Origin: Methanolobus mangrovi
Lineage (GTDB): Archaea > Halobacteriota > Methanosarcinia > Methanosarcinales > Methanosarcinaceae
DNA length: 64,000 bases
Reading direction: 5' to 3'
NCBI RefSeq assembly: GCF_031312535.1
Contig: NZ_CP133594.1
Location: forward strand, 682,001-746,000
The translations under genes and the position numbers were made by a program. The notes beneath the pieces were generated by a model. It was not told the DNA's origin. It saw only the letters and a list, made by a program, of their open reading frames with translations, and did not search any database. Below are positions 33,481-50,038 of the stretch, in pieces. Numbering within the stretch: the stretch's first letter is position 1; every line of letters begins with the position of its first letter.

Positions 33481-33490
33481 CTTTATTTTC
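33477..33490 (+). repeat. Left 14-bp casposon target-site duplication
   Basis: CGCACTTTATTTTC begins in the tRNA-Leu acceptor end and is repeated exactly at 48058-48071. Fourteen bases is the usual length of casposon target duplications. Confidence 0.88.
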
Positions 33491-33526
33491 GGGATATAGT
33501 TAACACTAAAAAACGGAACTTTTGTG
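33491..33526 (+). repeat. Left terminal inverted repeat of the casposon
   Basis: Starts GGGATATAGTTAACACTAAA and continues with AAACGGAAC. It aligns with the reverse complement of 48021-48057: GGGATATA is identical, then TAAC and CTAAAAA are shared. A near copy is at 50049-50075. Confidence 0.75.
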
Positions 33527-33634
33527 AAAAATTCATAGTTGGGACTATTTTCACAGTATATTTAGAAATAGAATTAAAGATACTTGCCAAAAGATTAAGT
33601 ACTGTGAATACTAACTAACATTGGTTAAAAAATA

Positions 33635-35044
33635 ATGCTTTTAAGTAATTATATAAACATCGTTTATGATAAACTAACGTTTTTAGATAGTATTTTGAGT
33701 TTAATTAAAGAAACAATCATTTCATACAATCTCAAATTTATTGATGAAATGCCTCATTTATTAACAATATTTAATACTGCTCTTCCATTGATAATTGCTC
33801 TTCTTACTTCATTTGGAATCTATGTTTATTATAACAAAAACAAATATGCTCTTTCTTATAAGTTAGAAAAACCTCATGAAATAGACGCATCACCAAAATC
33901 AGTAAATAATGTAATCGAAAATTGGGTTTCTTTCTCCAAATTATTAAAATACACATGTGGTTTTTCCTTTTTGTTGTGGGTATTTTGGTCAATTTTACTA
34001 ATATTTGTGTATCTAATATTTGGTTATGTTGGAGTTAAAGTAGGCATAGCGATTATTCTTTCGCTGCACATATTCGTCATTTCAAAGTTATATTCAGTAA
34101 TGTACAAAATCCAAATAGAAGAGGGAAGAAATAACTACGGATATATTTCAATTTATACATTATTCGTGTCTATTACCAGACTATTAATTTATGTATTTTT
34201 AAATTTATACAATGTACATAAGAAGTCTTTTTTCTCAACCGTTTCATCAATACTGGATAAGCTTTCCATTGAAGGCAATGTGAGATATATTTTCTATGCT
34301 GTTTCTTTAGTTTTTAGACTATTAATACTACCAATTGTTTTGATTCGCGTTTTAGTGCGCTCATTTGTATTTATATTAATTTATTTAGCAATACCAGCTT
34401 CTCTAATATTAAATAGTCTTGAATTTTTTATTCTATATGAATCATTACTTTTGGTTTATTTTGTTGTAAAATGTATGCCTTTATACCAAAATGTAAGAAC
34501 AATGTCAAGAGATCCCTTATTTGTAAATATAGAAATGATTAATGGAGAAACAATAAGTCATTTATTATTGTATCAAACTACTCTTTCAGATTATAGATTT
34601 AAAAGTTATATTACACAAAAAGAATTCATTGTTCCCCACTGTAATATTAAAAAAATATGTGAAGACTATGGGTTTGAATTAAGACAATTAGATAACTTAA
34701 TTGAACAGAAGCATTTTCTTATATCCGATTTCAATAATTTAAAGTATCAGCAAGACACAATAAAAATGCTTATACGGGTATTTCAAAATCAATATATGCA
34801 TAGAGTTTGGTACAAAAAAGCGATACTCTATAAAAGAATGAATGAGCCAGATCAAATGAAGCTTTCTTTAGAAGAGGCTATTAAAAGTACAAAATCAGCC
34901 TATGTTTTTCCGACAAAAAGCAGAAAAGTTTACTTGCAATTTATTTCATTCCTTAAAAAAGATAAGGAATTTTATGATGAGAGGGATAATAAATGGTTTA
35001 TAGATTTATTAGATGACACTAACAATAATGTATCAACCTCTTAA
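33635..35044 (+). CDS. Multi-pass membrane protein, casposon cargo
   Basis: 469 aa. About six TM segments (roughly 47-66, 107-130, 132-152, 170-190, 218-240, 243-280) and a C-terminal cytosolic helical region (about 330-469) with a TPR-like stretch ('WYKKAILYKRMNEPDQMKLS'). No family is recognised. Very AT-rich, more than the neighbours outside the element. It sits between the left terminal repeat and the polymerase gene, and its last 26 bases overlap the 3' end of that convergent gene. A defence or envelope role is possible but unproven. Confidence 0.7.
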   Translation: MLLSNYINIVYDKLTFLDSILSLIKETIISYNLKFIDEMPHLLTIFNTALPLIIALLTSFGIYVYYNKNKYALSYKLEKPHEIDASPKSVNNVIENWVSFSKLLKYTCGFSFLLWVFWSILLIFVYLIFGYVGVKVGIAIILSLHIFVISKLYSVMYKIQIEEGRNNYGYISIYTLFVSITRLLIYVFLNLYNVHKKSFFSTVSSILDKLSIEGNVRYIFYAVSLVFRLLILPIVLIRVLVRSFVFILIYLAIPASLILNSLEFFILYESLLLVYFVVKCMPLYQNVRTMSRDPLFVNIEMINGETISHLLLYQTTLSDYRFKSYITQKEFIVPHCNIKKICEDYGFELRQLDNLIEQKHFLISDFNNLKYQQDTIKMLIRVFQNQYMHRVWYKKAILYKRMNEPDQMKLSLEEAIKSTKSAYVFPTKSRKVYLQFISFLKKDKEFYDERDNKWFIDLLDDTNNNVSTS

Positions 35045-37685
35045 CAGCCGGAGTATTCAAATTGAGATTTCCATCCCTTATCCTTTGCTTTATTCCCTGA
35101 AACCTGCTCCTTGAAACTCCGAGAACTTCCGCTTCAGATTGTGACATGGTAAGGATATTATCCATTATCTCTTGTTTATTGATGAACTCCTGTGCCTTTT
35201 TCACATCAAGCGCCTGCTCATCAATATTGTTAGCTTCTTTGCCGATATAGATAACAGAATCAGCATGAACATGTTTTCTTTCCATTATTCCAATATCACC
35301 ATCAAACTTGGATTCTGGATGATTGGCATATTCTATTATTGTCCTGCTAAGTTGCTTGAAATAATGTGAGCCTTGCTTAATCTCTCCTGTTTCATAATCA
35401 ATAAATGGTTCGTAAACAATACCCTGAGGTTCATTTGAATAAGGAGATAATGGCTTTACAGCTTTACCGTTTTCCTCAACAGTCTGGAATCCTATATTAT
35501 AGAAGTTAAATGGCTTAATCTGCTCTTTCCATGATTTTCCTTTATTAATCTCATCAAACCTATGTAACACATTAGGAGTACTAACAGTAAGCCTTGAGAT
35601 TGCATACAGGTTGGAATACTTCTCTTCAATATCAGTTTCCGAAATTAACCCATAGTGCAACTTAAGAAGGTCTTCCCATATCTCAGCCTGCCAATCCTCA
35701 ACGTCCTTTGTAAATGGGTTTGTTAAGTGTCCAAGTCCATGTAATTTAAAAGATCTCTCACTTTCCATGAATTTGATTTTGCCATTTTCATAAGTGTAAA
35801 GAGCATAGCGTTTTGAGGATATCCCATAGAACCACATGTTCTCTTTTTCAGCCTTCAAGAGATCAATATCAAGACTATAAGGGTTTAGAGGCTGAAAATA
35901 GTCTACAATCTTCTGTGCGTGTTCAGGAGGAACAAAAATAGAATCGGTATCCATGTAAGCATGGACCGCACCAAGCTCGTTTGTTTTTGCCTCTGCCATA
36001 GCCAGGAATAACTTTGAGCCTGATGTAATCATCACACCTAGCAGAGGATGGAAATAATTGCCAGCCTTTTCAAATCTGTTTTCTGAAGTATTGAAGTCAT
36101 CCAAACCATAAACCTGAATGTCACTTTTCTCATTTTCAGGATTTAGCTCAATAAAGATTCCATAACTCATTGCATTAACAAGAATCTTAATAGCCTGTGC
36201 TCGACTCTTTAATTGTTGGTATTCTGGACTATCTTTGTCAATCTTCTTCATTTCAATCTTAATCTTCTGCCGTTCCTCAACAAGCACCTGAACAAGATTA
36301 TCCGTTTTAGGATCAATATCAATTCCAAGCATCTGAGATTTGTTTAATCGTCTCTGAACTCCTATTGGAATGAACTTGATAGCTTCAGTAATCTGAGGCA
36401 CTTTTCCAGTAAGAATTATTGAACTTATGACATCAGGAAGAGAATACCATAATTCTGAATCAGAACTCAAGTAATTTATACCTACATTAAAAGAAGTGCC
36501 TTCCTTCTTGTATATCTTCCTGACAGGCAATATATCCTCGTCAGGATGCAACTTTACCATTACGACAAAATCTTTCCAGTTTTCTTTATCCTGAAGATAA
36601 TCAAGATCTACATTTGACAGCATTTCCCTTGTTTCATCAGTGACTTCTTTCATCTCAAGTGATTCAGCTATTATGTACCTCCAGAGATTCATTAACATAG
36701 TAATGGTTGGATACATACTTGTGAAATCAAGAGTTGTTACCTTTACAGGATGTTTCCTTATCTTGCATTCACATCTCCCTCCAAAGTAGGAAGTCATAAT
36801 ATTTCCCAGAATTTCGGGAGAAAAGTCAGGATTCAAATTCAAAAAAGATTTAATCCCTAATTGCTTCAGAGCATGTTTTCCAATTGATGCATTGCTGTAT
36901 ATCTTGGTTGGTGGAATATCTATTTGATAGCGATCTAGTTCCTTAATGAGTTTTTCATAAACTTCCCAAGTTGCACGAACATCCTTTATCATGTAGCCGA
37001 TGTATGTATCTGTAACTTTTCCATGTTCATCACTTTTTGTCTTCTTTGTTGTTGTATTGAGTTTCTTGCAGGCTTTTTCAAGTGATATCTTGTTAGTACG
37101 AAGAAGAACCTCTGCTAATGTTTGGACATCAAGGAAGTATCCTGAGAAACGATCTTTACCTTCATTGATCTTGGTTGAAGTGAACTTGAAATCATGTCCC
37201 TCTCCCATTTTTTTGATAATTATGGGAGGGTTGAAACGATTGTCAGAAAGTGTAAAGGTGAGTCCACCTTTATTTCTTCCTCTTGAATCACCTACATGTT
37301 TTGCTATCCTGCTGATGTCAAAAGGGAGATTAAAACCTATACAAAGTGTTTTCCATCCGAATATTTCTGGATAAAAAACATCATCTATGAATTCTTTGAG
37401 AGTATAAAGAGCAATGTGTTTTTTGTTTGCATAAGAGACAAAAATATCCTTTTCTTTATCAGTAAGTATAGATTCTTCATAGAATATGCCCTCATGGTGA
37501 ATGTATCCATTTTGATATATCTGAAAACATCCTATCTTCATGTTTTGATACTGATTAGTCGTAGTTTCAGTATCAAAAACCAATACATTATCATGTCTTA
37601 GTGGAATTTCCTTTGGCCTGAAAAAGGAGGTATTTGATGAATCACTCACTTTATGAGTGTATCCTCTAACAGCAATCTTAGACAT
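35019..37685 (-). CDS. polB: Casposon family-B DNA polymerase
   Basis: 888 aa. The 3'-5' exonuclease domain starts with V-F-D-T-E-T (Asp38, Glu40) and 'CIGFNLPFDISRIA'. Polymerase motifs are A 'TLDFTSMYPTI' (about 318), B 'KILVNAMSYGIF' (about 503) and C 'YMDTDSIF' (about 578). The C-terminal 85 residues ('VIYIGKEAN...', 'MSQSEAEVLGVSRSRFQGIK') look like a small HTH-type DNA-binding tail, and two decayed copies of this tail lie at 48.7-50.0 kb. In casposons PolB is thought to copy the element. Its start overlaps the HNH stop by 8 bases, so it is the last gene of the RHH/212-aa/HNH/polB operon. Confidence 0.93.
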   Translation of the reverse strand: MSKIAVRGYTHKVSDSSNTSFFRPKEIPLRHDNVLVFDTETTTNQYQNMKIGCFQIYQNGYIHHEGIFYEESILTDKEKDIFVSYANKKHIALYTLKEFIDDVFYPEIFGWKTLCIGFNLPFDISRIAKHVGDSRGRNKGGLTFTLSDNRFNPPIIIKKMGEGHDFKFTSTKINEGKDRFSGYFLDVQTLAEVLLRTNKISLEKACKKLNTTTKKTKSDEHGKVTDTYIGYMIKDVRATWEVYEKLIKELDRYQIDIPPTKIYSNASIGKHALKQLGIKSFLNLNPDFSPEILGNIMTSYFGGRCECKIRKHPVKVTTLDFTSMYPTITMLMNLWRYIIAESLEMKEVTDETREMLSNVDLDYLQDKENWKDFVVMVKLHPDEDILPVRKIYKKEGTSFNVGINYLSSDSELWYSLPDVISSIILTGKVPQITEAIKFIPIGVQRRLNKSQMLGIDIDPKTDNLVQVLVEERQKIKIEMKKIDKDSPEYQQLKSRAQAIKILVNAMSYGIFIELNPENEKSDIQVYGLDDFNTSENRFEKAGNYFHPLLGVMITSGSKLFLAMAEAKTNELGAVHAYMDTDSIFVPPEHAQKIVDYFQPLNPYSLDIDLLKAEKENMWFYGISSKRYALYTYENGKIKFMESERSFKLHGLGHLTNPFTKDVEDWQAEIWEDLLKLHYGLISETDIEEKYSNLYAISRLTVSTPNVLHRFDEINKGKSWKEQIKPFNFYNIGFQTVEENGKAVKPLSPYSNEPQGIVYEPFIDYETGEIKQGSHYFKQLSRTIIEYANHPESKFDGDIGIMERKHVHADSVIYIGKEANNIDEQALDVKKAQEFINKQEIMDNILTMSQSEAEVLGVSRSRFQGIKQRIRDGNLNLNTPAVKRLIHYC

Positions 37686-38010
37686 CGACAGTCATCCCCA
37701 TACCAAGATTGATTAAATGCTGTCCAATCTCCTTCAGTAAAGCACCAATTGAAATGATACCAAAGGCCCTTTTGTTTTGCAAGGAAGATTCACTTGATCT
37801 TTCTTTAGGGCTAAGCCTGTTCTGTTCGGCAGTTATCTTTGCATGACAGTTCTTACAAAGGGGCTCTGTCCAATCCGAATTACTCTTTCCTTCAACATGA
37901 TGGTTTTCAATGGTTGCAGAGTGATCTTCTCCACAAATGCAACATGCCATTGGTGGCTTTTTTCCCTTCTTGTTTCTCTTAACGTAGGTTGCATATGCTT
38001 GTTTTTCCAT
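37678..38010 (-). CDS. HNH endonuclease of the casposon
   Basis: 110 aa. Zinc-HNH motif: C-x2-C ('CCICGEDH'), H-H ('ENHHVEG') and C-x2-C-H ('LCKNCHAKI'). The ATG at 38010 has AAGGAG upstream; a GTG three codons earlier overlaps that region. HNH nucleases are a common part of euryarchaeal casposons, perhaps helping excision or target processing. Overlaps the polB start by 8 bases and lies 12 bases after the 212-aa gene. Confidence 0.9.
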   Translation of the reverse strand: MEKQAYATYVKRNKKGKKPPMACCICGEDHSATIENHHVEGKSNSDWTEPLCKNCHAKITAEQNRLSPKERSSESSLQNKRAFGIISIGALLKEIGQHLINLGMGMTVDV

Positions 38011-38022
38011 AGTGTTCACTCC

Positions 38023-38661
38023 TTAATTCGGGTATATTTCAAGAAATTCAGGTTCTTCCTGAGCATCCCTTATTTCATAGAGCTTTTCAAGATCTGTTTC
38101 GAAATGATGCTCTTTGCCCTCTGCATCAATGATTTTCAGATTCTTGTATTTCTTAAGAATAGGCTTGTCTGGATCTTTCAAAGCCCTCTGAACATCATTG
38201 AAGTATTTTGCAATCAAGCTTCTATCCTTGGAAGAAGCAGTTACAATAGTTTTAACTCCACCCTTAGAGTAAATCAGCATTTCAACTTCTAAGCTGTCCG
38301 TTTTGTTAACAACCCATTTTCCATTGGATTTCTGAAGATTATTACCAAGATTCTTTAGTGCGAAGTCTGTTCTCAATCCTCTCTTCTTTAGTACTTGGGT
38401 TAATGATTCACCTTTTCTCAGGGATCTTAAGATCTCAAGAGAAAGATTTCTCTCCCTTTTTTGTTGAGAGCTGAGAGCTTTCCAAGGTGCTTTACTCAAG
38501 TCATAATCATTCATCCTAAGCTTTCTCAATTGGCTCAGGCTTTTATCTGGAAACATTTGATGCTTCCTGATGATCTCCTTTGCATACCTGGTATCTCTCG
38601 ATTTAGCTTTGAGCCAATCTCCATAAGTTCTAAAATCTTTGGAAAACTTAGGACGGCTCAT
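38023..38661 (-). CDS. Casposon protein of unknown function
   Basis: 212 aa, basic N-terminal half ('MSRPKFSKDFRTYGDWLKAK', 'SSQQKRERNLSLEILRSLRK', 'KKRGLRTDFALKNLG') with a helical, DNA-binding-like look, then a beta-rich C-terminal part ('VVNKTDSLEVEMLIYSKGG'). The start at 38661 overlaps the RHH stop as ATGA, so the two are translationally coupled. No domain is recognised. Its place in the replication operon suggests a role in DNA handling of the element. Confidence 0.75.
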   Translation of the reverse strand: MSRPKFSKDFRTYGDWLKAKSRDTRYAKEIIRKHQMFPDKSLSQLRKLRMNDYDLSKAPWKALSSQQKRERNLSLEILRSLRKGESLTQVLKKRGLRTDFALKNLGNNLQKSNGKWVVNKTDSLEVEMLIYSKGGVKTIVTASSKDRSLIAKYFNDVQRALKDPDKPILKKYKNLKIIDAEGKEHHFETDLEKLYEIRDAQEEPEFLEIYPN

Positions 38662-38798
38662 CTCTCTTCCTCCCATAGTTTCATTAAGGCTATTCTTACA
38701 ACTTCAGCTTGAGAGCATCCAAAGAAGTCTGACATCAATTCGAGTTTCTCCCTGTAATAGGGAGCTAATGTTATTGTTAATCTGTTTACAGGTGACAT
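38658..38798 (-). CDS. Ribbon-helix-helix protein
   Basis: 46 aa: MSPVNRLTITLAPYYREKLE, then LMSDFFGCSQAEVVRIALMK and LWEEER. The N-terminal strand ('RLTITLAP') and two helices with 'S-Q-A-E-V-V-R-I-A' are the CopG/Arc RHH pattern. GAGGT lies 5 bases before the ATG. It is the first gene of the minus-strand casposon operon and overlaps the next start by ATGA. It probably represses the divergent promoter region at 38799-38973 or helps pack the element ends. Confidence 0.8.
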   Translation of the reverse strand: MSPVNRLTITLAPYYREKLELMSDFFGCSQAEVVRIALMKLWEEER

Positions 38799-38973
38799 TT
38801 TTTACCTCACCAATAACCAAAATAACCGCATGTTTTATATTCAAATTTGACCTATAATATGACATCTAATTTGATGCTATTTGGCATTTAGTTAAGAGAA
38901 TATAATTCCTATTTAGAGATATTTGGCTTATAGTTAGAAAATACAACATTTGTAAAAAAAATGAGGTATTCAT
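38799..38973. promoter_or_regulatory. Divergent promoter region of the casposon
   Basis: A 175-bp AT-rich gap between the minus-strand RHH-polB operon and the plus-strand HTH-cas1 operon. It holds repeated ATTTGGCATTTAGTTA/ATTTGGCTTATAGTTA words (about 38879-38894 and 38919-38934), likely operators, and AT-rich TATA candidates. The RHH and winged-helix proteins coded on either side are natural binders. Confidence 0.55.
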
Positions 38974-39834
38974 ATGGATAAACAAATGAAAAGCAAAGAC
39001 TTTGATGAAAGTTTGAAAGAATACCTCTCTAGCTATGGAATTGTAAAGAGAGCGGATATTTTAGATGCCTTTAGAGGTGAGCGCAGCAAAAGATCAATTG
39101 TTCGGCACTTAGAGAACTTGAAAGAAGCTGGATTCATAGAAAAATTGTCTGCCAAACAAGTCACAAAATATGGTATCAAGCCAAAAGATTATCGTGAAAA
39201 GTACTTTTTGCTAAAGGAGAATACAGAAATAAAAAATCATATTGATGCTGTCTTTAAGCTCTTTGATGATGGTGATTCTGAAGCTAAAATCGCTGCTTTA
39301 GGGGAAATGGATACTTATAGTAATTATTACTTTTTAGAACCTTTGCAATTAGATATTCTGGTTAAAAATCTTAGTGAAAAAGACATTGAATTGTCATATC
39401 AACTAATGGTTGTTATTCACCACTATATTGTGGATAAAAAGATTCAACCAAGTGACATCAACTTACTGCTTACCAAGTTGAGATCGCTTTTGAAAAATAT
39501 ACCACCTATGTCTCAACAACGTCCTGTTCTTCGAGGGAATATTATTGCCTTACTTTGCAAGTATAATGATGAAACTGTAATTGATCAACTTATCAAAGAT
39601 GCCGAAACAATGGAAAACTTCGCAGATGTAAAAGACGAGTATGATAAACTATATGCTGCCAAGTTAATCGAAAAGAATAGGACGAAGCTTTTCAATCTTG
39701 AAATTGAGTTGAGAAATAAAGGTAAGCACAAAAATGCCAAAGTTCTTTCTCAAATAAGGGATCAGGCAAGAAAGGGAATAGATATAGCGGTGCTTGGTGG
39801 AAATGTTAATACTCTGAGGAGTGACCTTAAATGA
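38974..39834 (+). CDS. Casposon winged-helix protein
   Basis: 286 aa. The N-terminal 70 residues form a winged helix ('YLSSYGIVKRADILDAFRGE', 'SIVRHLENLKEAGFIEKL') and the rest is all-helical, HEAT-like (about 85-275). Its stop overlaps the cas1 start (ATGA), so the two proteins are made together. It may regulate cas1 or guide the casposase to the ends or the tRNA-Leu target. No precise family is recognised. Confidence 0.8.
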   Translation: MDKQMKSKDFDESLKEYLSSYGIVKRADILDAFRGERSKRSIVRHLENLKEAGFIEKLSAKQVTKYGIKPKDYREKYFLLKENTEIKNHIDAVFKLFDDGDSEAKIAALGEMDTYSNYYFLEPLQLDILVKNLSEKDIELSYQLMVVIHHYIVDKKIQPSDINLLLTKLRSLLKNIPPMSQQRPVLRGNIIALLCKYNDETVIDQLIKDAETMENFADVKDEYDKLYAAKLIEKNRTKLFNLEIELRNKGKHKNAKVLSQIRDQARKGIDIAVLGGNVNTLRSDLK

Positions 39835-41045
39835 GATTTTTACTGTTAAACGGTCATGGCATTGATATGCGTGTCAATGGAGCTAAACTTCATGTCAAGA
39901 ATGGAAGATTCTCTACCACTGAAGAACCTGAAGAATACGTATTCTCTCCAAAAAGAATGGACATTGATAGTGTTATTATCTATGGAAGAAAAGGAAATCT
40001 TACACTAGATGCTATCCGTTGGTTGATAAAACACAATGTTCAGATATCAATACTCAACTGGGATGGAAAGTTACTGACTACAATGCTCCCGCCTGAAAGC
40101 ACTAATGTCAAGACAAAGTTTGCTCAATACCATGCTTTTGAGGATGACAAAGCAAGAGTCAAAATAGCAAAGAATTTTATAGATGCTAAATTCGATAAAA
40201 CTCAAGTGGTACTTGATTATCTAAAACAACGCTATCCCGAAAGTGACTATGATTTCACAGAAGATTTCAATAAACTGAAGAAGACTAAAACCATTAAGGA
40301 AATAATGGGTGTCGAGGGTGGAGTAGCCTACAAATACTGGAACGAGTTCTCAAAAGCTATTCCTGAAAAATACGATTACGAATCAAGAATAGATTCAAGC
40401 CGTAGGCCCAACGGGGCAGGGGACATGGTAAACACTATGCTTAACTATGGCTACGCTTTGTTAGAGGCAGAGGCCCTTAGGGCCATCAACGCTGTGGGGC
40501 TAGATCCCCACGTGGGTTTTTTGCATGAAATGAATACTAGCAAGAATAGTCTTGCTTATGACTTACAAGAACCTTTCAGGTTCTTAGTAGATCTTGCTGT
40601 TTTAAACCTCATAGAAAGAGATTGCATGGAGAAGAAAGATTTCATTAGAACTGAAAGTTATTCCTTGCGCCTGAGGCCCACTGGGGCTAAGAAACTAACT
40701 GAAGAGATCAATCTATGGTTCAACAAGAGAGTTAATTACAAAGGGAATATGACAATGTGGAGTTATGTAATGTTCCTGAAAACTAGGGAATTAGCTCAGT
40801 ATCTAGTTGGTAAGAGACAGGAGACAGATTTTGTAGAACCACAATATGAGACAAAGAGACAGGATACAAACGACATAAGACAGAAAATACTCAGTATTTC
40901 CTATTCCGATTGGAAAAAGCTAGGATTTTCAAAAGGAACATTACATTATATGAAGAAAAATGCAAAAGCAGATACCCCTTTTACACTTAATGCACATAAT
41001 AAAGAGCGTTTGGATAAGTGGGAAAAACTTGTTGCAAATGGTTGA
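39831..41045 (+). CDS. cas1: Cas1 casposase (integrase)
   Basis: 404 aa. The N-terminal beta domain (about 1-90) and the helical catalytic domain carry the Cas1 triad: Glu162 in 'GVEGGVAYKYW', His232 in 'DPHVGFLHEMN' and Glu247 in 'AYDLQEPFRF'. A C-terminal extension ends with an HTH-like segment ('YSDWKKLGFSKGTLHYMKK', about 365-385), a mark of casposases against CRISPR Cas1. No cas2, other cas genes or repeat arrays are nearby. It joins element ends to target DNA, making 14-bp duplications. A run of GAGACA repeats lies within its 3' part and beyond. Confidence 0.95.
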   Translation: MRFLLLNGHGIDMRVNGAKLHVKNGRFSTTEEPEEYVFSPKRMDIDSVIIYGRKGNLTLDAIRWLIKHNVQISILNWDGKLLTTMLPPESTNVKTKFAQYHAFEDDKARVKIAKNFIDAKFDKTQVVLDYLKQRYPESDYDFTEDFNKLKKTKTIKEIMGVEGGVAYKYWNEFSKAIPEKYDYESRIDSSRRPNGAGDMVNTMLNYGYALLEAEALRAINAVGLDPHVGFLHEMNTSKNSLAYDLQEPFRFLVDLAVLNLIERDCMEKKDFIRTESYSLRLRPTGAKKLTEEINLWFNKRVNYKGNMTMWSYVMFLKTRELAQYLVGKRQETDFVEPQYETKRQDTNDIRQKILSISYSDWKKLGFSKGTLHYMKKNAKADTPFTLNAHNKERLDKWEKLVANG

Positions 41046-41145
41046 TTTTGATGGAGACATGTAGTCTCCTTTGTCTTTTCATGCTATATTTAGGAGACAA
41101 TTCCAAGAGACATGAGAGACAAATGCAAAGGACAGACAAGAGACA
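40814..41145 (+). repeat. GAGACA repeat cluster at the cas1 3' end
   Basis: The exact hexamer GAGACA occurs nine times in 332 bp (40814, 40821, 40848, 40856, 41054, 41094, 41107, 41116, 41140), half inside cas1 and half after it. A perfect hairpin GGAGAC-ATGTA-GTCTCC (41053-41069) lies 8 bases after the cas1 stop. It may be a protein-binding array, a recombination region or the joint between casposon core and hsd cargo. Confidence 0.65.
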
Positions 41146-41325
41146 AATAAAAAATATTATATAGTAATGATGTGATTAATCTAAATGCCATTTTGTATTA
41201 TTTTGATTTTTTACTTCCTTATAGCAAAATAAACCAAATATAAGTATTGAATAGACAACATGTACGCATCATAAAATTACTATAAAATGATTATTAAGAA
41301 TAGTTTAAAAGAGGGATTTTACTAA

Positions 41326-43368
41326 ATGAACATTCTCCAATACGAATCAAAAATTTGGGCAACTGCAGATTTATTACGTGGCAGTGGAATTAAAGAATCA
41401 GAATGGCCGTCATACATGATGCCATTTTTTGCTCTTGTTATGATTGAAAGCCGTCTTGTTAGAATGTTTGATGATTTAAAAGCTGAAATTGGCAAAGAAG
41501 CATTTGCTAATATAGAAAAAGATGACCTATACAATATGATTAAAGATCAGGGACAGGGTTACAACATATACATTTTTGAACACGACAAAATCCTAACTGA
41601 TATCTGTAAGAATGATAAATCATTTGATATTGATTTTGACGCTTATCTCAATGGTTTTGATGGCGAAACCAAAGATCTTCTTGGCGTGGATGTTACAGAA
41701 GGCGAAAAATTCCTCGATATCAAAGGTGTGGTCACCAAGCTCAAAGCCAAAAAAGTATTGTTTAGCTATACTAAATTATGGGCTGAGATTAACCTTAAAC
41801 CTTTTAATAACTCCGAAATAACCACACTGGAAGAACACATCAAGCGTAAATGGGCAGATATTTCAGCAGAAACAGCTGGAGAACAATATACGCCAGATGA
41901 TGTAATTGCACTTATTGCCGAGATTATTTCTTCAAAAATAGAAGAGTCAGACAAACTGCTTAAAATATACGACTGCACTTGTGGCGGCGGTAATATGCTG
42001 TTTGGGGTCGAAGATCGTATTAATGATAAATTCAAACGTCTTACCCAGACTTACGGTCAAGACTGGAACGATCCACTATATGCACTTGCTAAGATTGAAA
42101 GCCGTTTTCGACCTGATTCTAAAATTGAACATGGCAATACTCTAGTAGAGGACAAGTTCTACAATGAAGAATTTGACGTAGTTGTTGCAAATCCTCCTTA
42201 TGGTGTGAGCTGGAAAGGATATCAAAAGGATATTGAAAACGACAAAACTGGAAGATTCCATTTTTTGCCATCTGTCTCCGATGGGCAGCTTTTATTCATG
42301 CAGCACCTTATTTCCAAGCTTGATTCAATCGGTATGGGAGTAGTGGTACACAACGGATCCAGCTTATTCAGTGGTGATGCTGGTTCAGCAGAAAGTAATA
42401 TCCGCAAATGGATGCTTGATAGCGATATTGTGGAAGCAGTGATCCAGTTACCGACAGATGAGTTTTTTAACACTGATATTTACACTTACCTCTGGGTGCT
42501 GAATAAGAATAAACAGTCGCAGCACAAAGATAAAGTAATGCTGATTGATGCCAGTGAAAAATTCAAGCCATTGAAAAAGAATAAAGGTTCCAAGCGCAAA
42601 GAAGTGGATGAAGTCAGCCGTTTAGAGATTGTTGAAACACTTACAAAATACCTAGACAGTGATTACGCCCGTGTATTCGACAAGGAGTTTTTCTACTTCA
42701 ACAAACAGGCCATCATGCTCACCAATGTAGATGAATATGGTAATAGCTTTGAATCGAAGTTAAAGAAAGGCAAGAAAAGTGAAAAGCTTACGCCAACAAA
42801 ACTTACCAATGGTGAGCGCGAAATGAGCGAGTTTGTTATCACATCCTTTGATACAACTCAATACGATTCCTTGGATGATGTCTTTGCACAGGACATCAAG
42901 CCCTTTATTGCATCCCTGAATTACAAAGAACAGCCTCTTGTTATCACCACTGCTACGGCACAGTACTGGTTTGATGCTGAGCAAGAATCGCTGATTAAAG
43001 AAACAAATGGTAAAAAAGAGTGTCTGGGCTGTGGAAAAATAGTGGTAAAATCTGCTTATAAAAAAGCGAACAAAAAAAATCCAGATCGCATTGAAATCAC
43101 CGTTGAGCTCACACCTGATTACCAGAAAGATTATGAACTTATTCCCTATCACAAGGACGGAGCTGCAAATCAAGCGGAGATTGCAGACTTTATGGCAAAA
43201 TACATCACCAAACCATTTGCATACTTAGATAATCTGGTGGGTGTGGAACTGAATTTCAATAAGATATTTTACAAACCAGAAAAACTGGACAGAGTAATTG
43301 ATATTTTGGAAGAGATTGATGCGCTTGAGATGAAGTTGAAGGAGTTAGAAACGGGGCTGTCATTATGA
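41326..43368 (+). CDS. hsdM: Type I restriction-modification methyltransferase subunit
   Basis: 680 aa. N6-adenine methylase: SAM-binding region 'DCTCGGGNMLFG' (about 216) and catalytic N-P-P-Y ('VVVANPPYGVSW', about 286-297). It methylates host DNA in complex with HsdS. It is longer than the usual 480-540 aa HsdM, with an extra C-terminal part carrying C-x2-C ('KECLGCGK') and a helical tail. GAGGGAT precedes the ATG. It overlaps hsdS by 4 bases. Confidence 0.92.
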   Translation: MNILQYESKIWATADLLRGSGIKESEWPSYMMPFFALVMIESRLVRMFDDLKAEIGKEAFANIEKDDLYNMIKDQGQGYNIYIFEHDKILTDICKNDKSFDIDFDAYLNGFDGETKDLLGVDVTEGEKFLDIKGVVTKLKAKKVLFSYTKLWAEINLKPFNNSEITTLEEHIKRKWADISAETAGEQYTPDDVIALIAEIISSKIEESDKLLKIYDCTCGGGNMLFGVEDRINDKFKRLTQTYGQDWNDPLYALAKIESRFRPDSKIEHGNTLVEDKFYNEEFDVVVANPPYGVSWKGYQKDIENDKTGRFHFLPSVSDGQLLFMQHLISKLDSIGMGVVVHNGSSLFSGDAGSAESNIRKWMLDSDIVEAVIQLPTDEFFNTDIYTYLWVLNKNKQSQHKDKVMLIDASEKFKPLKKNKGSKRKEVDEVSRLEIVETLTKYLDSDYARVFDKEFFYFNKQAIMLTNVDEYGNSFESKLKKGKKSEKLTPTKLTNGEREMSEFVITSFDTTQYDSLDDVFAQDIKPFIASLNYKEQPLVITTATAQYWFDAEQESLIKETNGKKECLGCGKIVVKSAYKKANKKNPDRIEITVELTPDYQKDYELIPYHKDGAANQAEIADFMAKYITKPFAYLDNLVGVELNFNKIFYKPEKLDRVIDILEEIDALEMKLKELETGLSL

Positions 43369-44678
43369 TGACGCATAATATGGCAAGATATGATGCTTAC
43401 AAATCAACTGATTCTCTTTGGTTCAATGAAGTCCCTGTTCACTGGAAAAATGGAAGGGTTAAGGATTTTGTAGACATTAATGCTTTAGCAAAAGTACCAA
43501 CTGATCTTAACGATGATGATTTAGTTGAATTTGTTCCCATGACAAATGTAAATGAGGACCTTGGGGAAATAAAACAATTCAACTTTGTTCCGATTAATGA
43601 TGTTTCTAGTGGTTATACCAAATTTAGAAATGGGGATGTGATATTTGCAAAAATCACCCCCTGCATGGAAAATGGTAATTGTGCAATTGTGAGTGGTCTT
43701 TCGCATAATATTGGTTTTGGTAGTACTGAATTTATGGTATTTCGCACTTCAAGTAAACTGACACAAAAATATTTACATTACTTTCTATATAATGAACTTT
43801 TTAGAAGAAATGCTGAGCCATTCATGAAAGGCACTGCTGGGCAAAAACGAATCAGTAGTCATTACATGGCTACGCATTATTTTGCATTACCTCCTCTTGA
43901 TGAACAAAAAGCCATTGCAGCTTACCTCGACACCAAAACCACACAGATTGATCGCAAAATAGACATGCTAACTCAAAAGGTCACCCAATATAGCAAGCTC
44001 AAACAATCTCTGATTAACGAAACTGTCACCCGTGGTTTAGATAAAACCGTGGTAATGAAAGATAGCGGAATTGAGTGGATTGGTGAAGTGCCAGAACATT
44101 GGCGTTCTCTTCGAATTCATGATTGTGCAGTACCAACTAAAAATAAAAATATAGGGTTGCAAAATAAAAACTTGCTTTCCTTGAGTTATGGCAAAATTAA
44201 GAAGAGAAATTTTAACACTAGCTTTGGTTTGCTACCTGCCTCTTTTGAAACATATCAAATAGTAAATAATGGAAACATTATTTTACGTTTAACTGATTTA
44301 CAAAATGACAAAAAAAGTCTAAGAGTTGGACTGGTAACGCAAAAAGGTATTATCACCTCTGCATATCTCTGTTTAAAATTCAAGAATTGGATTGATCCTG
44401 TTTTTTCGTATTATCTCCTTCATCTATACGACATATCAAAAGTTTTTTATTGGTATGGAGGTGGATTGAGATCAACAATGAAATTTGATGATATAAAGGT
44501 GCTACCTTTTTTAGTTCCACCTCTTCTCGAACAAAAAGCAATAGCCACCTATCTCAATACAAAAACATCTCACATTGACTCCATTGTTGAAACTATCAAT
44601 GCCCAGATAGAAAAACTTAAAGATCTGCGCAAAACATTGATTAACGACGTTGTGACCGGCAAAATTAAAGTTGTATAA
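43365..44678 (+). CDS. hsdS: Type I restriction-modification specificity subunit
   Basis: 437 aa with two target-recognition domains (about 20-185 and 230-400), each followed by the conserved coiled-coil spacer ('LPPLDEQKAIAAYLDTKTTQ' and 'VPPLLEQKAIATYLNTKTSH'). Each domain reads one half of the split target. The two spacers are close repeats, which permits domain swapping. Translationally coupled to hsdM by a 4-base overlap. Confidence 0.94.
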   Translation: MMTHNMARYDAYKSTDSLWFNEVPVHWKNGRVKDFVDINALAKVPTDLNDDDLVEFVPMTNVNEDLGEIKQFNFVPINDVSSGYTKFRNGDVIFAKITPCMENGNCAIVSGLSHNIGFGSTEFMVFRTSSKLTQKYLHYFLYNELFRRNAEPFMKGTAGQKRISSHYMATHYFALPPLDEQKAIAAYLDTKTTQIDRKIDMLTQKVTQYSKLKQSLINETVTRGLDKTVVMKDSGIEWIGEVPEHWRSLRIHDCAVPTKNKNIGLQNKNLLSLSYGKIKKRNFNTSFGLLPASFETYQIVNNGNIILRLTDLQNDKKSLRVGLVTQKGIITSAYLCLKFKNWIDPVFSYYLLHLYDISKVFYWYGGGLRSTMKFDDIKVLPFLVPPLLEQKAIATYLNTKTSHIDSIVETINAQIEKLKDLRKTLINDVVTGKIKVV

Positions 44679-44690
44679 GGAAATGAAAAT

Positions 44691-47600
44691 ATGAATGAAC
44701 TTCACCTGCAAGATAAGTTTTTAATTCCATTTATTAGAGATGAGCTTGGTTACCGCGAAGTAAAAGCCAATACAGTAACAAGCTCATTGATTATAGAAGA
44801 GGACTTGCAGGAGTTTATTTCTCAAACCGAGCTAAATAAAAAACCTTATGAAACCTTGCTGAAAAAATATAGTGGTGACAAAGACAAACTGTTGAAAGAC
44901 CTGATTGAACTCATCCAGGAACGTAGCAGCAGTAGCCGTAATATGGCACTGTTCATTAATGCTAACAAGTCTATTACCATGAAGGGCATTAAACTACACC
45001 TATTTTACACAAGTGACAGCGTAATTCATAACAATGTACTGTTTGATGAGAATATCTTTTCAGTGGTGCAGGAACTGCCCTATAAGTATAGTTATAACGA
45101 CAAGCAGATATTTTCTTTCCGACCAGATATTGTGTTATTTGTGAATGGAATTTATCTGGGGTATAGTGAATTAAAGTCCAATTACACAAGTCAAAATGCT
45201 CGTAAAAATGGACGTGGAAAGGTAATTAAAGATTACTTTGAGGCAATTAGAATCTATCATAAGCATTTTGATAGTAATGATATGTTGAGTGAAAAAGAGA
45301 AAGATTTCTATCGCAAAGATTTCTTGAAGATATTTGAAAAAGCAATTCATATCACCACTACAGACATCGGTGAAACTTATGTTATTCGTACTATCATAGA
45401 TTATTTCGATGAAATGCTTACCACTTGTCGTGAAGGCAAGTTTGATCGTGAAGAGATTGAGAAAAAAGCTAATCGTGTGTTTAAGCCATATCCATTGCTC
45501 AAACCCGATGCCGAAAAGAAAGACAAATTGAAAGAATTATTTACTGTGCTATATGGCAAAGATTTCATTGAAAAAGAAATTCTATATTATAATTTTATTG
45601 AACGTGATGTCTATACCACTAAAAAAGGCAAAGAATTAAAAAGCGAGTCAGGAAAGCTGATTTCACCCCGACCCAAACAAAAGTTTGGTACGGATAAGAT
45701 CATGGCAAAAATTGATGAGTTTTTGGCACACGAGCAAGAAGACGATTATTTTGAAAAAATACTAGAAAAACAGCTTATTGGTGTATCTGAAACCAAGAAA
45801 AAAGAGTTGCTGAGAAAACGCAGAGCTTATTCTAATAATAAAAATGTATATTCCTTGTTAATGCAGTATGCAGCAGGCTTTGGTAAGTCCAATATTATTG
45901 GATGGTCTGCTTTACAGCTTAAAGATTTACGGCACGCTGATGAGTATGTATACGACAAAATCATGATTGTGGTGGATCGTTTACAATTGCGCAGTCAAAT
46001 TGATTCTTTAATGCTCAACATGAATATCGACAACCGTATGTATGTTGAAGCCCGCAACAAAAAAACTTTCCAAGAAGCACTTGAATCCGATACGCGTTTA
46101 GTGATTGTGAATTTGCAAAAGTTTGGTTCTGTACGCGAGATGCTGGATGATGAAGTGTTGCAAAAACTTGCCGGAATGCGAATTGTGTTTTTGATTGATG
46201 AAATTCACCGATCCAACAGCGGTGACCAGCATGAAGAAATGATCAGTATCTTCGATGAGTTACAATCGCCATTTGATAACAATGTACAGTATTCTCATAT
46301 GCGAAAAAAGAAGAATCTAATCATCGGTTTTACTGCCACGCCAGATGATCATACGCTTGCTAGATTTGGAGAATTCAGCGGTTATGCAGAAAGTGAAAAA
46401 CTGTGGAGACCATTTGATTCATACACCATGAAAGAAGCGATTGAAGATGGATATATACTCAACCCATTAAAAAATATCGTGCCTGTGGCCTCCAAGATGT
46501 TGTTCGATTTACCTGTAAATCAGTTAAAAGGTTTTACTGAAAAAGAATACAAAGATGCCCAGAAAAAACAGATTTATGAAAACCGTGATCGCATTGATGC
46601 AATTGCTAAATATGTGGCTGACCTGTTGGTAAAAGATGTCTATCGCCAAATACGCGGAACAGGCAAGGCGATGCTTGCCGTATATTCAATTAAAGCTGCG
46701 ATTGCTTATAAACAGGCGGTGACCAAATATTTTAATATTCTAATTCAAGAACCAAAATATGCAAAGTACTCTGAGGCACCGATTCACATTGTATATTCCA
46801 GAAATCAAGACGAGCAAAGAGCAAGTGTTCTTAACGATGATTTGAGTGAAGAAAAGGTAATGCAAAATTTTGCACTTAAAAAAAATGGATTAATAATTGT
46901 GGTGGCTAAATTACAAACCGGTTTTGATGAGAAAAAGCTGCACACGCTGTTTTTAGATAAAGAAATTAAAGGCATTAGTGCGATTCAAACTATTTCCCGC
47001 GTTAATCGTACAACCAAATACAAAAACGATTGCAAGATTGTTGATTTTTCTTATAACAATGTGAATGTTCAGAATATCAAAGATGCTTTTGAACATTATT
47101 CCAATGTTGTTGTCAGTGACTTTGATCCCTTTGGCGATAAAAAAATACTGGATATCTTATATGTAGAACTAAAAAAGTCAGACATATTTGGTAAGTTCTT
47201 TAGTAGATTTATGGCGATTTACAATGATAAAACTAAGCGAGATGATCCAGAAAGTTATCTGGATTTTGAAAGCAGTTTAGAAAAGTACATTGAAGTAAAT
47301 CCCAAGCGCACCGCCGACACAAAAGCCAAGGGATCACAGTATTTTACAATCTTAAATCGCATTGAATATGTGATTGAATTGGATAAAAAATACTGTGAAC
47401 CGAGTTTTTTATTCTTTTGGCGCAAGTTCAACACTTTGTATAATATGATGCATCGCAGTGATGCTATAAAAGATCCGATTGAAGTTTATTTTGATAATCA
47501 GATTGGTATTATTGAAGTTGAAACTGAAGATAGAAATGAAAAGGAAAAGAAACCCACTCAAGTAGCAACCGGCAAAGAACCAAAGGGTGATTATCAATTT

Positions 47601-47915
47601 GATATCCTTGCAATCATTGCTGCACGTAACGAACATGAGGCTAAAACAGCCTTGCTTATTCAAGACTTTGAATCTAAAATTGAGAACTTTTTTGAATATG
47701 TACGGAATGAGAATGACGGTAAGCGCTTGATTGTAAAAATTAACTCTAATTCATCAGAGTCGGAAATATATGAGGACTTTGCCAAAATATATAGACGATA
47801 CAAAGCACTTAATCGTCAGAAAGTTGGGGATTATTTCTTCCAAGAAATGGATGATTTGGTAAATAAACTGTGTGACGATTTTCAGTTTAAAATATCTAAA
47901 AGTTCTTCAAGTTAA
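44691..47915 (+). CDS. hsdR: Type I restriction endonuclease subunit
   Basis: 1074 aa. An N-terminal nuclease-like part has the PD-(D/E)xK-type residues 'FRPDIVLFVNGIYLGYSELK' (about 145-165). SF2 helicase motor: Walker A 'AAGFGKSN' (about 394-401), D-E-I-H box 'LIDEIHRS' (about 500) and 'GFTATP' (about 543). It translocates and cuts DNA lacking the HsdM mark. AAGGA precedes the ATG and it lies 12 bases after hsdS. All motifs are intact. It is the last gene before the right terminal repeat. Confidence 0.93.
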   Translation: MNELHLQDKFLIPFIRDELGYREVKANTVTSSLIIEEDLQEFISQTELNKKPYETLLKKYSGDKDKLLKDLIELIQERSSSSRNMALFINANKSITMKGIKLHLFYTSDSVIHNNVLFDENIFSVVQELPYKYSYNDKQIFSFRPDIVLFVNGIYLGYSELKSNYTSQNARKNGRGKVIKDYFEAIRIYHKHFDSNDMLSEKEKDFYRKDFLKIFEKAIHITTTDIGETYVIRTIIDYFDEMLTTCREGKFDREEIEKKANRVFKPYPLLKPDAEKKDKLKELFTVLYGKDFIEKEILYYNFIERDVYTTKKGKELKSESGKLISPRPKQKFGTDKIMAKIDEFLAHEQEDDYFEKILEKQLIGVSETKKKELLRKRRAYSNNKNVYSLLMQYAAGFGKSNIIGWSALQLKDLRHADEYVYDKIMIVVDRLQLRSQIDSLMLNMNIDNRMYVEARNKKTFQEALESDTRLVIVNLQKFGSVREMLDDEVLQKLAGMRIVFLIDEIHRSNSGDQHEEMISIFDELQSPFDNNVQYSHMRKKKNLIIGFTATPDDHTLARFGEFSGYAESEKLWRPFDSYTMKEAIEDGYILNPLKNIVPVASKMLFDLPVNQLKGFTEKEYKDAQKKQIYENRDRIDAIAKYVADLLVKDVYRQIRGTGKAMLAVYSIKAAIAYKQAVTKYFNILIQEPKYAKYSEAPIHIVYSRNQDEQRASVLNDDLSEEKVMQNFALKKNGLIIVVAKLQTGFDEKKLHTLFLDKEIKGISAIQTISRVNRTTKYKNDCKIVDFSYNNVNVQNIKDAFEHYSNVVVSDFDPFGDKKILDILYVELKKSDIFGKFFSRFMAIYNDKTKRDDPESYLDFESSLEKYIEVNPKRTADTKAKGSQYFTILNRIEYVIELDKKYCEPSFLFFWRKFNTLYNMMHRSDAIKDPIEVYFDNQIGIIEVETEDRNEKEKKPTQVATGKEPKGDYQFDILAIIAARNEHEAKTALLIQDFESKIENFFEYVRNENDGKRLIVKINSNSSESEIYEDFAKIYRRYKALNRQKVGDYFFQEMDDLVNKLCDDFQFKISKSSSS

Positions 47916-48020
47916 TTTTTGGATTTATTGAAACATCACAATTTACTCTTTTTTTATCATTGCATTCATGATTAATTGCAATTTTTATATCTAAGTAATT
48001 GGCAATTTTATTTCTTAAAT

Positions 48021-48057
48021 TTTAAAGCGTACACTTTTTAGACGTTATATATATCCC
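48021..48057 (-). repeat. Right terminal inverted repeat of the casposon
   Basis: Read on the minus strand it begins GGGATATATATAACGTCTAA and goes on AAAGTGTACGC. It shares GGGATATA and CTAAAAA with the left repeat, and is closer still to the outward element end at 48072-48109 (GGGATATATA, AAAAAGTGTACG). Confidence 0.75.
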
Positions 48058-48071
48058 CGCACTTTATTTTC
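48058..48071 (+). repeat. Right 14-bp casposon target-site duplication
   Basis: CGCACTTTATTTTC, identical to 33477-33490. It is flanked on both sides by element ends: the right end of the intact casposon and the left end of a second one. Confidence 0.88.
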
Positions 48072-48109
48072 GGGATATATACAAGCGGAAAAAAGTGTAC
48101 GGCGTTTTG
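48072..48109 (+). repeat. Left terminal repeat of a second casposon
   Basis: Starts GGGATATATACAAGCGGAAA and continues AAAGTGTACGG. It mirrors the right end of the first casposon across the shared 14-bp target. Another AAAAAAAGTGTACC occurs at 48137-48150. Confidence 0.7.
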
Positions 48110-48170: not shown

Positions 48171-48689
48171 TTAAATGAGCGAATATGTATAATCGCCTGT
48201 TTTTTGATAGGTATAACTCTCTGATATTTTATCAGTAGTAGCTAAATATCCATGGATGTCGTCAATTGAATAATATTCTATGTATATGGTAAAATTATCA
48301 ATGAATTCAGAATCTTGGGGAAGATACAACTTGTAATCAAAGTTTACAACTTCGTTTCTTTGAAGATAGTGTCCTTCAGAACTCGACCAATCAAATTCAC
48401 TTCTGTCTTTATACCTAGATAATACCTGATTAGAAGATATGGTTACAAAAACATCACCATCATCACCAACATTTTTCATTGTGACACGAAAGTCTGCCAT
48501 ATAATCATCCCAGTCATTAAAAGTCAACGAATTAAAAACAACTTCATCGTTTTCTTGTATACATGTCAAAGGATTGGGAGGTTCCATATAATCGCCAAGT
48601 GGATTGAGTAACAATATACCTACAAGCCCAACAATTATAGCTCCAAGAATTGTTGCAATTGTTTTATTTTCACCTAGTATATCAACCAT
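48171..48689 (-). CDS. Small membrane-anchored protein of unknown function
   Basis: 172 aa from the ATG at 48689 (MVDILGENKTIATILGAIIV), or 185 aa from 48728. One N-terminal TM helix (about 9-28), then a beta-rich extracellular part with 'FRVTMKNVGDDGDVFVTISS'. A TATA-like run within 48700-48715 favours the shorter, leaderless form. Cargo of the second casposon; no family is recognised. Confidence 0.55.
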   Translation of the reverse strand: MVDILGENKTIATILGAIIVGLVGILLLNPLGDYMEPPNPLTCIQENDEVVFNSLTFNDWDDYMADFRVTMKNVGDDGDVFVTISSNQVLSRYKDRSEFDWSSSEGHYLQRNEVVNFDYKLYLPQDSEFIDNFTIYIEYYSIDDIHGYLATTDKISESYTYQKTGDYTYSLI

Positions 48690-48724
48690 AATCACAATAC
48701 AATATAAAAATATAAATATTTTAT

Positions 48725-48907
48725 TCATATTTCAATAGCTTCAGCAGGAGGCAAAAACAAAAAACTCCCGTATCTTTTCAATATCATGCTATGTCTAAAT
48801 ATGAGTTTCTCAAGCTCTTGCATTTCAATCTTATTAGTTCCTTGCTGATATACACACATCCATTGGGCTTCAGATGCCTTTTTTCCAAAATCCAGTATTC
48901 CCTTCAA
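48725..48907 (-). pseudogene. Decayed casposon polymerase C-terminus, copy 1
   Basis: The frame contains 'CVYQQGTNKIEMQELEKL' and ends 'LFLPPAEAIEI'. This lines up with 'CVYIGKEANKVEMQELESN...NITPAEARKIGI' of the copy at 49761 and with the tail of the intact PolB ('VIYIGKEANNIDEQALD'). Catalytic domains are absent. Confidence 0.55.
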
Positions 48908-49001
48908 ATTTGGCTTTAGTTGTAGATATTTATTAACTTTACATCAATAATTTTTTATTAATTTAAGATATGTAAGTGTGTCTAATTTTTGAGTTGATGG
49001 T

Positions 49002-49751
49002 ATGACTAAAATAGAGGATTTGAACAAAAAAGTTGATGAATTATGTACAGAAGCAAAAGAAATTATGGATATCATAACTAAAAAGGATACCACATTTCTT
49101 GATTTAATGTATTCTTACCAAAAATGGTACACTGAATCTATGTATGTCATCAAACAAGTAATACCTGATAGGCTACCAGAATTTAAAGCTCAATATGAAT
49201 CACCTAAGAATATACACAAAGCAGAAGCACTAAATGTTCTTACTTACTCAATTAATGATTATTTTAGAAACATTAATGTGACAAAAAATGGGGAACAAAT
49301 GTTTAATCCCAAAGAGGTTGTACTAAGTAAATTTTTAATACAAGCTACAATTTTGACATCTGCACGAGAAGGATTGAAATCTTCATTATTTGATATTCAG
49401 GGTATGTTACAAGCTGAAATACATGATAATGAAATATCTAAAGCAAGAGAGCTTTATAAAAATGATTACTTAAGGTCTGCAGGAGTAATTTGTGGTGTTG
49501 TTTTAGAAGGTCACTTAAACAATATATGTACATTAAAACAGATAAAAATGAAAAAAAGAACCCCTACATTAGCAGATTATAATGATGCTCTTAAAAATGA
49601 AAATATCATAGATTTAACAAATTGGAGATGGATTCAAAGACTAGGAGATATCAGAAATCTATGTGCTCATAAAAAGGAAAGAGAACCAACTAAAGATGAA
49701 GTTCAAGAACTAATAGATGGAGTAGACAAAGCAATAAAAATTATCTATTGA
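49002..49751 (+). CDS. HEPN-like protein, casposon-associated
   Basis: 249 aa, all-helical, with a coiled coil at the N-terminus. The C-terminal 90 residues ('YLRSAGVICGVVLEGHLNNI' and then 'GDIRNLCAHKKEREPTKDEV') have the R-x4-H motif (R-N-L-C-A-H) of HEPN ribonucleases, common in defence and abortive-infection proteins. There is no paired nucleotidyltransferase or antitoxin nearby. It lies between two decayed copies of the PolB tail. A nuclease or defence role is inferred. Confidence 0.65.
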   Translation: MTKIEDLNKKVDELCTEAKEIMDIITKKDTTFLDLMYSYQKWYTESMYVIKQVIPDRLPEFKAQYESPKNIHKAEALNVLTYSINDYFRNINVTKNGEQMFNPKEVVLSKFLIQATILTSAREGLKSSLFDIQGMLQAEIHDNEISKARELYKNDYLRSAGVICGVVLEGHLNNICTLKQIKMKKRTPTLADYNDALKNENIIDLTNWRWIQRLGDIRNLCAHKKEREPTKDEVQELIDGVDKAIKIIY

Positions 49752-49760: not shown

Positions 49761-50038
49761 TTAATAAAAAATATTAGAAGTTGCTATTTTCCTCATCTCC
49801 TTCGTATTCAAGCTAAATTCCTCTTCTTGCACCCTTTCCTTCAATTTTTTAAGAGTACTCCTATATTTAATTCCTATTTTCCTAGCTTCAGCAGGAGTAA
49901 TGTTGAGTACATACTCTCTTATCTTTTCAATATCGTGATACGTCTCAACAGTATTGCTTTCAAGTTCCTGCATTTCAACCTTATTGGCTTCCTTGCCAAT
50001 ATACACGCATCCTTTAGGCTTGAGATGTCTCATTGGAA
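49761..50038 (-). pseudogene. Decayed casposon polymerase C-terminus, copy 2
   Basis: Reads 'GCVYIGKEANKVEMQELESN', 'DIEKIREYVLNITPAEARKI' and 'SLNTKEMRKIATSN' and matches the last 85 residues of the intact PolB, including the HTH-like tail. No polymerase motifs remain. The open frame runs on to 50114 only because it crosses the terminal repeat at 50049. Confidence 0.75.

Follow-up and report, generated by a model that had tools for sequence, protein, structure and literature searches.

Tandem casposons at a tRNA-Leu gene of Methanolobus mangrovi and its relatives suggest that casposon arrays are extended next to the tRNA, with decay of the older copies and their fusion into hybrids

Background

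Casposons are transposons that insert by means of a relative of the CRISPR enzyme Cas1. The adaptation machinery of the CRISPR systems is thought to have descended from casposons, with the casposon target giving rise to the CRISPR leader and repeat. The locus analyzed here, which lies within a 64,000-nucleotide stretch (hereinafter, the window) of the Methanolobus mangrovi genome (a single contig of 2.62 Mb), raises the question of whether casposons accumulate at a tRNA gene in a fixed order, similarly to spacers in a CRISPR array, and what becomes of the older copies. An earlier note, made from the sequence alone, described two casposon ends in the window as mirror images around one 14-bp target, read them as a tandem insertion at a tRNA-Leu gene, and compared the tRNA 3' end to a CRISPR leader-proximal site that gains elements successively. 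Tandem casposons that share a target and are separated only by the target site duplication (TSD), as well as the comparison with CRISPR arrays, have been published previously (PMC6563490, PMC9939771, PMC10359463).

Results

The insertion target is the 3' end of a host gene for tRNA-Leu(TAA) (positions 33396..33481 of the window, plus strand; identified with ARAGORN). The first target copy, CGCACTTTATTTTC (33477..33490, plus strand), overlaps this end and is directly preceded by the leader part of the target, which comprises the T-arm motif TTCGAATC and 8 additional nucleotides (33461..33476, plus strand). The second copy (48058..48071, plus strand) is common to two casposons, units 1 and 2, and lacks the upstream T-arm motif. 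These are the only two perfect copies of the 14-mer in the window; they are identical and represent a 14-bp target duplication that starts with CGCA at the tRNA 3' end. The mirror arrangement proposed in the earlier note is exact: the second copy is flanked by GGGATATATATAACGTC on the minus strand (48041-48057) and GGGATATATACAAGCGG on the plus strand (48072-48088), and the mirrored arms reach 30 nt, with 80% complementarity. The junction pattern TATWWCCCCGCAN10GGGWWATA has a single match in the window (48050-48079) and none in 100 shuffles. The short end motif GGGATATATA, with 1 mismatch allowed, is found in the window at the chance level (5 occurrences against 4.7 expected), and we therefore rely on the combined junction pattern rather than on this motif.

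Unit 1 (33491..48057, plus strand; 14,567 bp) carries a full set of casposon genes between unlike ends. Its left end (end family A, gggatatagttaacactaaaaaacggaact, 33491..33520, plus strand) is followed by a cargo ORF for a probable membrane protein of 469 aa (33635..35044, plus strand; hydrophobic stretches judged by eye) and by a class I PolB (35019..37685, minus strand; Pfam DNA_pol_B, E-value 1e-7; class assigned from the tree) that shows 61-78% identity to the class I PolB of other units. Next come genes for two conserved casposon proteins of 113 and 217 aa (37678..38676, minus strand), a gene for a conserved 286-aa protein that lies directly 5' of cas1 (38974..39834, plus strand; without a confirming Pfam match for an HTH domain), the casposase (Cas1) gene itself (39831..41045, plus strand; 404 aa; Pfam Cas_Cas1, E-value 3e-68; 94% amino acid identity to the casposase of genome G009), and cargo in the form of type I restriction-modification genes for the M, S and R subunits (41326..47915, plus strand). 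The right end (end family B, gggatatatataacgtctaaaaagtgtacg, 48028..48057, minus strand) adjoins the second target copy. The cas1 gene is solo, that is, outside any CRISPR-Cas operon, with genes for casposon proteins and hsd genes as its neighbors, and a polB gene is present in the same element, as expected of a casposon. No match to Cas2 was detected among the ten window proteins scanned, and the locus does not display the short spacers and Cas2-dependent acquisition that characterize a CRISPR array. Given its affinity to elements of the Methanosarcina type and its insertion at tRNA-Leu, unit 1 is probably a family 2 casposon. The earlier note considered the end at 48041-48057 to be the right end of an intact element; this is borne out with respect to the gene set, but the two ends of the element come from different end families. 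As putative terminal inverted repeats, these ends share the outer GGGATATA but differ in 10 of 30 positions.

Beyond the second target copy, the left end of unit 2 (end family B, gggatatatacaagcggaaaaaagtgtacg, 48072..48101, plus strand) is followed by an ORF of 185 aa without a family match that is possible unit 2 cargo (48171..48728, minus strand), a remnant of the C-terminal part of a class II polB (48716..48919, minus strand; blastn to class II polB genes), a DUF4145 ORF that could belong to the cargo of either unit 2 or a third remnant (49002..49751, plus strand), and a second class II polB C-terminal remnant (49785..50034, minus strand; 90% nucleotide identity to unit 2 of G024). Both polB scraps have the same orientation as the unit 1 polB and may come from one rearranged unit or from two. 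The end family (gtgtacg) and the PolB class (class II) of unit 2 are mutually consistent; by eye, its end also contains an extra inner block that recurs in ends of G078, G012 and G107 as well as in the far units of G085a and G002b. A search for the right end of unit 2 and for a distal, third target copy yielded neither, and unit 2 is thus known from one end and remnants only. The sequence features point to an older, eroded family B casposon remnant, of which one end and two scraps of the PolB C-terminus survive. With two casposons and one target copy between them, and the far end of unit 2 not detected, the tandem reading of the junction is supported.

Two other candidates for parts of the array were discarded. 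Position 62162, considered as the far target copy of unit 2, has no adjoining casposon end. The 28-nt likeness of 50052-50079 to the left end of unit 1, considered as a third casposon end, is attributed to chance because the segment, by eye, reads as coding sequence just upstream of a polB C-terminal remnant.

In the genus, the tRNA-Leu(TAA) locus was found in about 24 of the 27 genomes, nearly always with a casposon end adjoining, and none provided a usable empty site; the boundary with the host chromosome was therefore set by synteny. In seven relatives, the counterpart of a gene at ~52.0-52.5 kb of the window follows the array, at a distance of 14 to 31 kb from the tRNA, and accordingly, the segment of ~33.5-52.0 kb is considered to be the casposon island. 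In G014, the closest genome by the tRNA flank, the first unit is different and the assembly is broken, so that no direct view of the locus before and after insertion was obtained. Two additional features are found in this part of the window. A GNAT acetyltransferase-like gene (50986-51543, minus strand), relatives of which adjoin casposase C-terminal fragments in G007, G025, G009:C3 and G003:C37, is possible casposon cargo. A Cas1 remnant of 34 residues with a stop codon (52532-52633, minus strand; 50% identity to residues 266-299) lies beyond the array itself, immediately before the 52644-54263 ORF.

A survey of one genome per species with exact patterns places the junction in a broader context. 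In the genus, the junction pattern yields 22 matches, in 15 of the 27 genomes; in the order, there are 51 matches in 31 of the 186 genomes, all within Methanosarcinaceae, and the reversed control yields 0. Across 84,980 species, the matches come mostly from Methanolobus, Methanococcoides and Methanosarcina, with a few scattered matches elsewhere. A tRNA-adjacent pattern, TTCRANTC-N8-CGCA-N10-GGGNWATA, is present in 63 of the 112 genomes of the family (control, 0). In line with the tandem insertion proposed for the window, other genomes of the genus contain two, three or at least four casposons behind this same tRNA-Leu, with copies of the 14-mer between them: the G001 array consists of three units with four target copies, and the G006 array of at least four units, whereas the other arrays have two or three. 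The target copies along each array match the tRNA-end sequence of the respective genome, and in most arrays, the target at the first junction is identical to the tRNA copy. Two arrays are at odds with the simplest order of insertion. In G001, copies 2 and 3 are the same, and copy 1, at the tRNA, is the most deviant, with 2 differences; in G006:C2, a single base alternates over the four copies (TTTG/TTCG/TTTG/TTCG). These patterns are not explained by simple duplication.

The comparison across genomes also bears on the notion that the mirror arrangement reflects not a pair of transposon ends but a transcription terminator or some other functional hairpin. The 89 nt of the junction indeed fold strongly (-29.6 kcal/mol, z = -5.3). 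However, other junctions range from -7.6 to -53.3 kcal/mol and from 11/30 to 29/30 in arm identity, according to the end families involved; the tRNA-end 14-mer forms the loop; and the junction pattern is missing from the other families of the order. The earlier note had named a palindromic terminator at loci without casposons as the observation that would overturn its reading; instead, the two arms at other junctions are in most cases derived from different end families, with a median identity of 19/30, and within the order the motif is found in the casposon-bearing family and in none of the others. We consider a functional hairpin to be highly improbable.

Several observations on the arrays of the relatives are worth recording. 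Neighboring units in most arrays belong to different end families, with close matches in G033a and at one junction of G109; like neighbors may have been lost by recombination. Unit 3 of G006:C2 (~2960440-2967155) is a closed 6.7 kb unit with nearly matching ends and target copies that lacks both cas1 and polB and contains intact cargo ORFs, by eye HEAT-repeat-like and GIY-YIG-like; it is a candidate for a natural non-autonomous casposon. Casposase fragments, mostly the C-terminal ~60 residues, are scattered in many genomes, as are C-terminal fragments of polB; in the genome analyzed here, casposase or polB fragments map to positions 174519, 422555, 866233, 1934117 and 2392993 of G000:C1. As seen from these scattered fragments, the segments of casposons near the ends persist longer than the central part.

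We then consider the unlike ends of unit 1. The left end belongs to the ...cggaact family and the right end to the ...gtgtacg family, whereas in most bounded units the two ends differ in 0-5 of 30 bases. Altogether, seven units have unlike ends, namely unit 1 of the window (10/30), G015a, G004, G085b, unit 2 of G085a, G081 and G078. In the PolB tree, the window PolB is placed beside the class I PolB of units with family A or related ends (G001, G026, G019), and every unit with a class II PolB has a family B (gtgtacg) end on the PolB side. In the Cas1 tree, the window Cas1 adjoins the Cas1 of G009, which comes from a unit of the gtgtacg type at both ends. Sliding nucleotide identity favors the class I set (61-86%) up to ~38.56-38.75 kb and the G009/G015 set (mostly 78-98%) beyond this segment, in which both classes are still alignable; we denote the segment (38560..38750) the crossover zone, with the class I part to its left and the family B part to its right. 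Taken together, these comparisons indicate that unit 1 is a hybrid, with the left end and the PolB module from one casposon family, and the right end and the Cas1 module from another. Such a structure would follow from homologous recombination between neighboring units in the same orientation, and we infer that the hybrid arose in place, within the window array. Recombined PolB and Cas1 modules likewise occur in units whose ends match, for example, unit 1 of G026.

A related event is discernible in G025 and G019, which share both the tRNA flank and the distal flank. The G019 array consists of an intact unit 1 of 13.2 kb and a decayed unit 2. In G025, unit 1 is missing, and the tRNA is followed by ~45 bp that resemble the unit 1 left end and then by the body of unit 2 (91% identity). 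Deletion between similar ends of adjacent units appears to be the best account of the G025 array, and judging from this pair of genomes, array collapse can fuse two units.

Fusions of this kind lend some weight to the possibility that the casposons in the window were brought together by chromosomal rearrangement or deletion, rather than by two insertions at one target, as has been argued for the casposons of Methanolobus psychrophilus R15 in a review (PMC9939771). Deletion fusions seem to happen in arrays, to judge from the seven units with unlike ends and the case of G025 and G019, and the far end of unit 2 is missing. Nevertheless, the window junction contains an undamaged 14-bp copy of the local tRNA end precisely between two complete ends, and the same arrangement, built around the target sequence of the respective genome, is found at the tRNA-Leu genes of many species, including the arrays with three (G001) and four (G006) units. 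Hence, rearrangement as the origin of the window junction is improbable in our assessment.

If casposons insert successively at the tRNA, the units next to it should be the youngest. To compare the units, profiles were built from 30 full-length copies of the casposase and 28 of PolB, and the tRNA-side unit was compared with the far-side unit at the 51 junctions, which were picked by the junction pattern alone, with gene content ignored. The tRNA-side unit is more intact with respect to cas1 and polB at 27 junctions and the distal unit at none, with 24 ties; thus, the polarity predicted in the earlier note, with the newest element next to the tRNA, holds when intactness serves as a proxy for age. 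With a minimum of 8 kb or a closed unit required on both sides, the split was 21 proximal to 0 distal, with 15 ties; per genome, 19 are proximal, 0 distal and 4 neutral. The species compared are related to each other, but the tRNA-side units differ in family from species to species, an argument for independent insertions. Among 26 arrays with a tRNA or T-arm as the anchor, a set that overlaps the 51 junctions and was partly picked via intact cas1 matches, unit 1 is more intact in 21 and unit 2 in 0. By total coverage instead of intact ORFs, 6 of the 37 informative junctions lean distal, all of them pairs of two decayed units. Dating of units by the divergence between their left and right ends was rejected for lack of a usable order: the proximal units were not ranked youngest, and unit 2 of both G001 and G006 has perfect ends.

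That intactness tracks age is our interpretation of these counts. Proximal units might instead be intact for other reasons, such as protection from deletion or being the sole mobile unit, with insertion possible at any target copy. The end divergence within units and the target copies of G001 and G006, which give no clean order, as well as the presence of two intact units in three arrays (G006, G009a, G026), are compatible with this alternative. The one-way distribution of 27 to 0 over 51 junctions argues against it, as does the lack of an upstream motif of the Aciduliprofundum boonei type (PMC6614799) on any internal copy, and we regard it as unlikely. Under the preferred interpretation, age-dependent decay, new units would be added beside the tRNA, similarly to the leader-end growth of CRISPR arrays, and older copies would decay and fuse into hybrids.

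The distribution of the leader motif agrees with this polarity. The motif TTCRANTC is found at none of the internal target copies (0 of 51 junctions), where a casposon end occupies the place in which the T-arm motif would be; in the window, the recognition motif is likewise confined to the proximal copy, where it reads TTCGAATC. These counts, along with the 27:0 polarity, lend support to the likening of the tRNA 3' end to a CRISPR leader-proximal site. The casposase of A. boonei requires TCAAATC 8 bp upstream of the TSD together with the first two target bases (PMC6614799), and that of Methanosarcina mazei requires 30 bp of tRNA-Leu beyond the TSD (PMC6977970). Furthermore, in M. mazei, a mini-casposon entered the left TSD of the casposon already in place, giving a tandem (PMC10359463), which fits growth at the tRNA side.

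By analogy with A. boonei and M. mazei, the following scenario can be proposed for the window casposase. The Cas1-type enzyme would recognize the T-arm TTCGAATC, 8 bp before the cut, together with CGCA at the 3' end of tRNA-Leu(TAA), and the casposon would insert there with 14 bp copied. The target copy beside the tRNA would retain the T-arm and stay usable, whereas the distal copy, now preceded by a casposon end, would lose its status as a target. Once an insertion has taken place, a good target is expected only on the tRNA side, and therefore, each later insertion would fall between the tRNA and the previous casposon. Older units would be pushed outward and decay, and the tandem units would later recombine.

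Some casposon ends, in Methanococcoides genomes such as L248 (end at 1006), L249, L259 and L261 as well as in the right end of unit 1 of G028b, carry their own mimic of the tRNA T-arm (TTCRAATC-N8-CGCA) ~50-60 bp inside the end, and several of the mimics are followed by another casposon end. The strict form of the mimic is present in 4 of 52 Methanococcoides ends compared to 0 of 78 in other genera. Arrays may thus also grow on the casposons themselves.

Discussion

Sequence comparison makes it very likely that the window contains a casposon array shaped by T-arm-directed insertion at the tRNA side, outward decay, and recombination that produced the hybrid unit 1. We give about even chances to a more general proposition, namely, that tRNA-anchored arrays keep insertions in order, with growth exclusively on the side of the tRNA, and at the same time serve as a recombination workshop, in which fusion of neighbors, with ends travelling together with the adjacent PolB or Cas1 module, yields casposons with unlike ends such as unit 1. 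If casposon arrays already grow only beside a tRNA-derived leader, the ordered growth of CRISPR arrays would have been inherited with the enzyme rather than invented. Through hybrid units, new lineages of casposons could emerge, as could new pairings of PolB, Cas1 and ends. With the present catalogue of arrays, growth at the tRNA side becomes open to strain comparison. We found no earlier report of quantified array polarity or of hybrid units, although our coverage of the literature is incomplete (Krupovic et al. 2016, Beguin et al. 2016).

The closest known relatives of the window elements are the MetMaz-type family 2 casposons, found at tRNA-Leu in Methanosarcina and relatives, which share with the window Cas1 and PolB, tandem units with a TSD between them, and a 14-bp TSD that starts with CGCA and has a 4-bp overlap with the 3' end of tRNA-Leu (PMC6977970, PMC9939771, PMC10359463). 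The window differs in having a hybrid unit 1, whose ends are unlike, and only a remnant of unit 2; in addition, the polarity of arrays is quantified here across species. In M. psychrophilus R15, a member of the same genus, a casposon likewise adjoins a decayed second casposon, an arrangement that has been compared to Tn7 islands (PMC4046053). However, the terminal inverted repeats of that second element were not found, and a rearrangement was later proposed (PMC9939771), whereas in the window, the near end and the shared target are intact. The family 1 casposons NitNF5-C1 and NitNF5-C2 are also arranged in tandem in one target, although that target is the ef-2 gene of a thaumarchaeon, as opposed to a tRNA (PMC6563490).

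Among other mobile elements, Tn7 islands at glmS resemble casposon arrays in the repeated insertion at one safe site and the inactivation of some copies over time (PMC4046053), but the transposition machinery is unrelated. In contrast to CRISPR arrays, casposon arrays consist of whole transposons of ~8-18 kb with PolB and cargo, involve no Cas2, and imply no spacer function. With the leader-end growth of CRISPR arrays, they nevertheless have in common the homologous integrase Cas1, a duplicated target, an upstream recognition motif, and, if intactness reflects age, the newest unit beside that motif.
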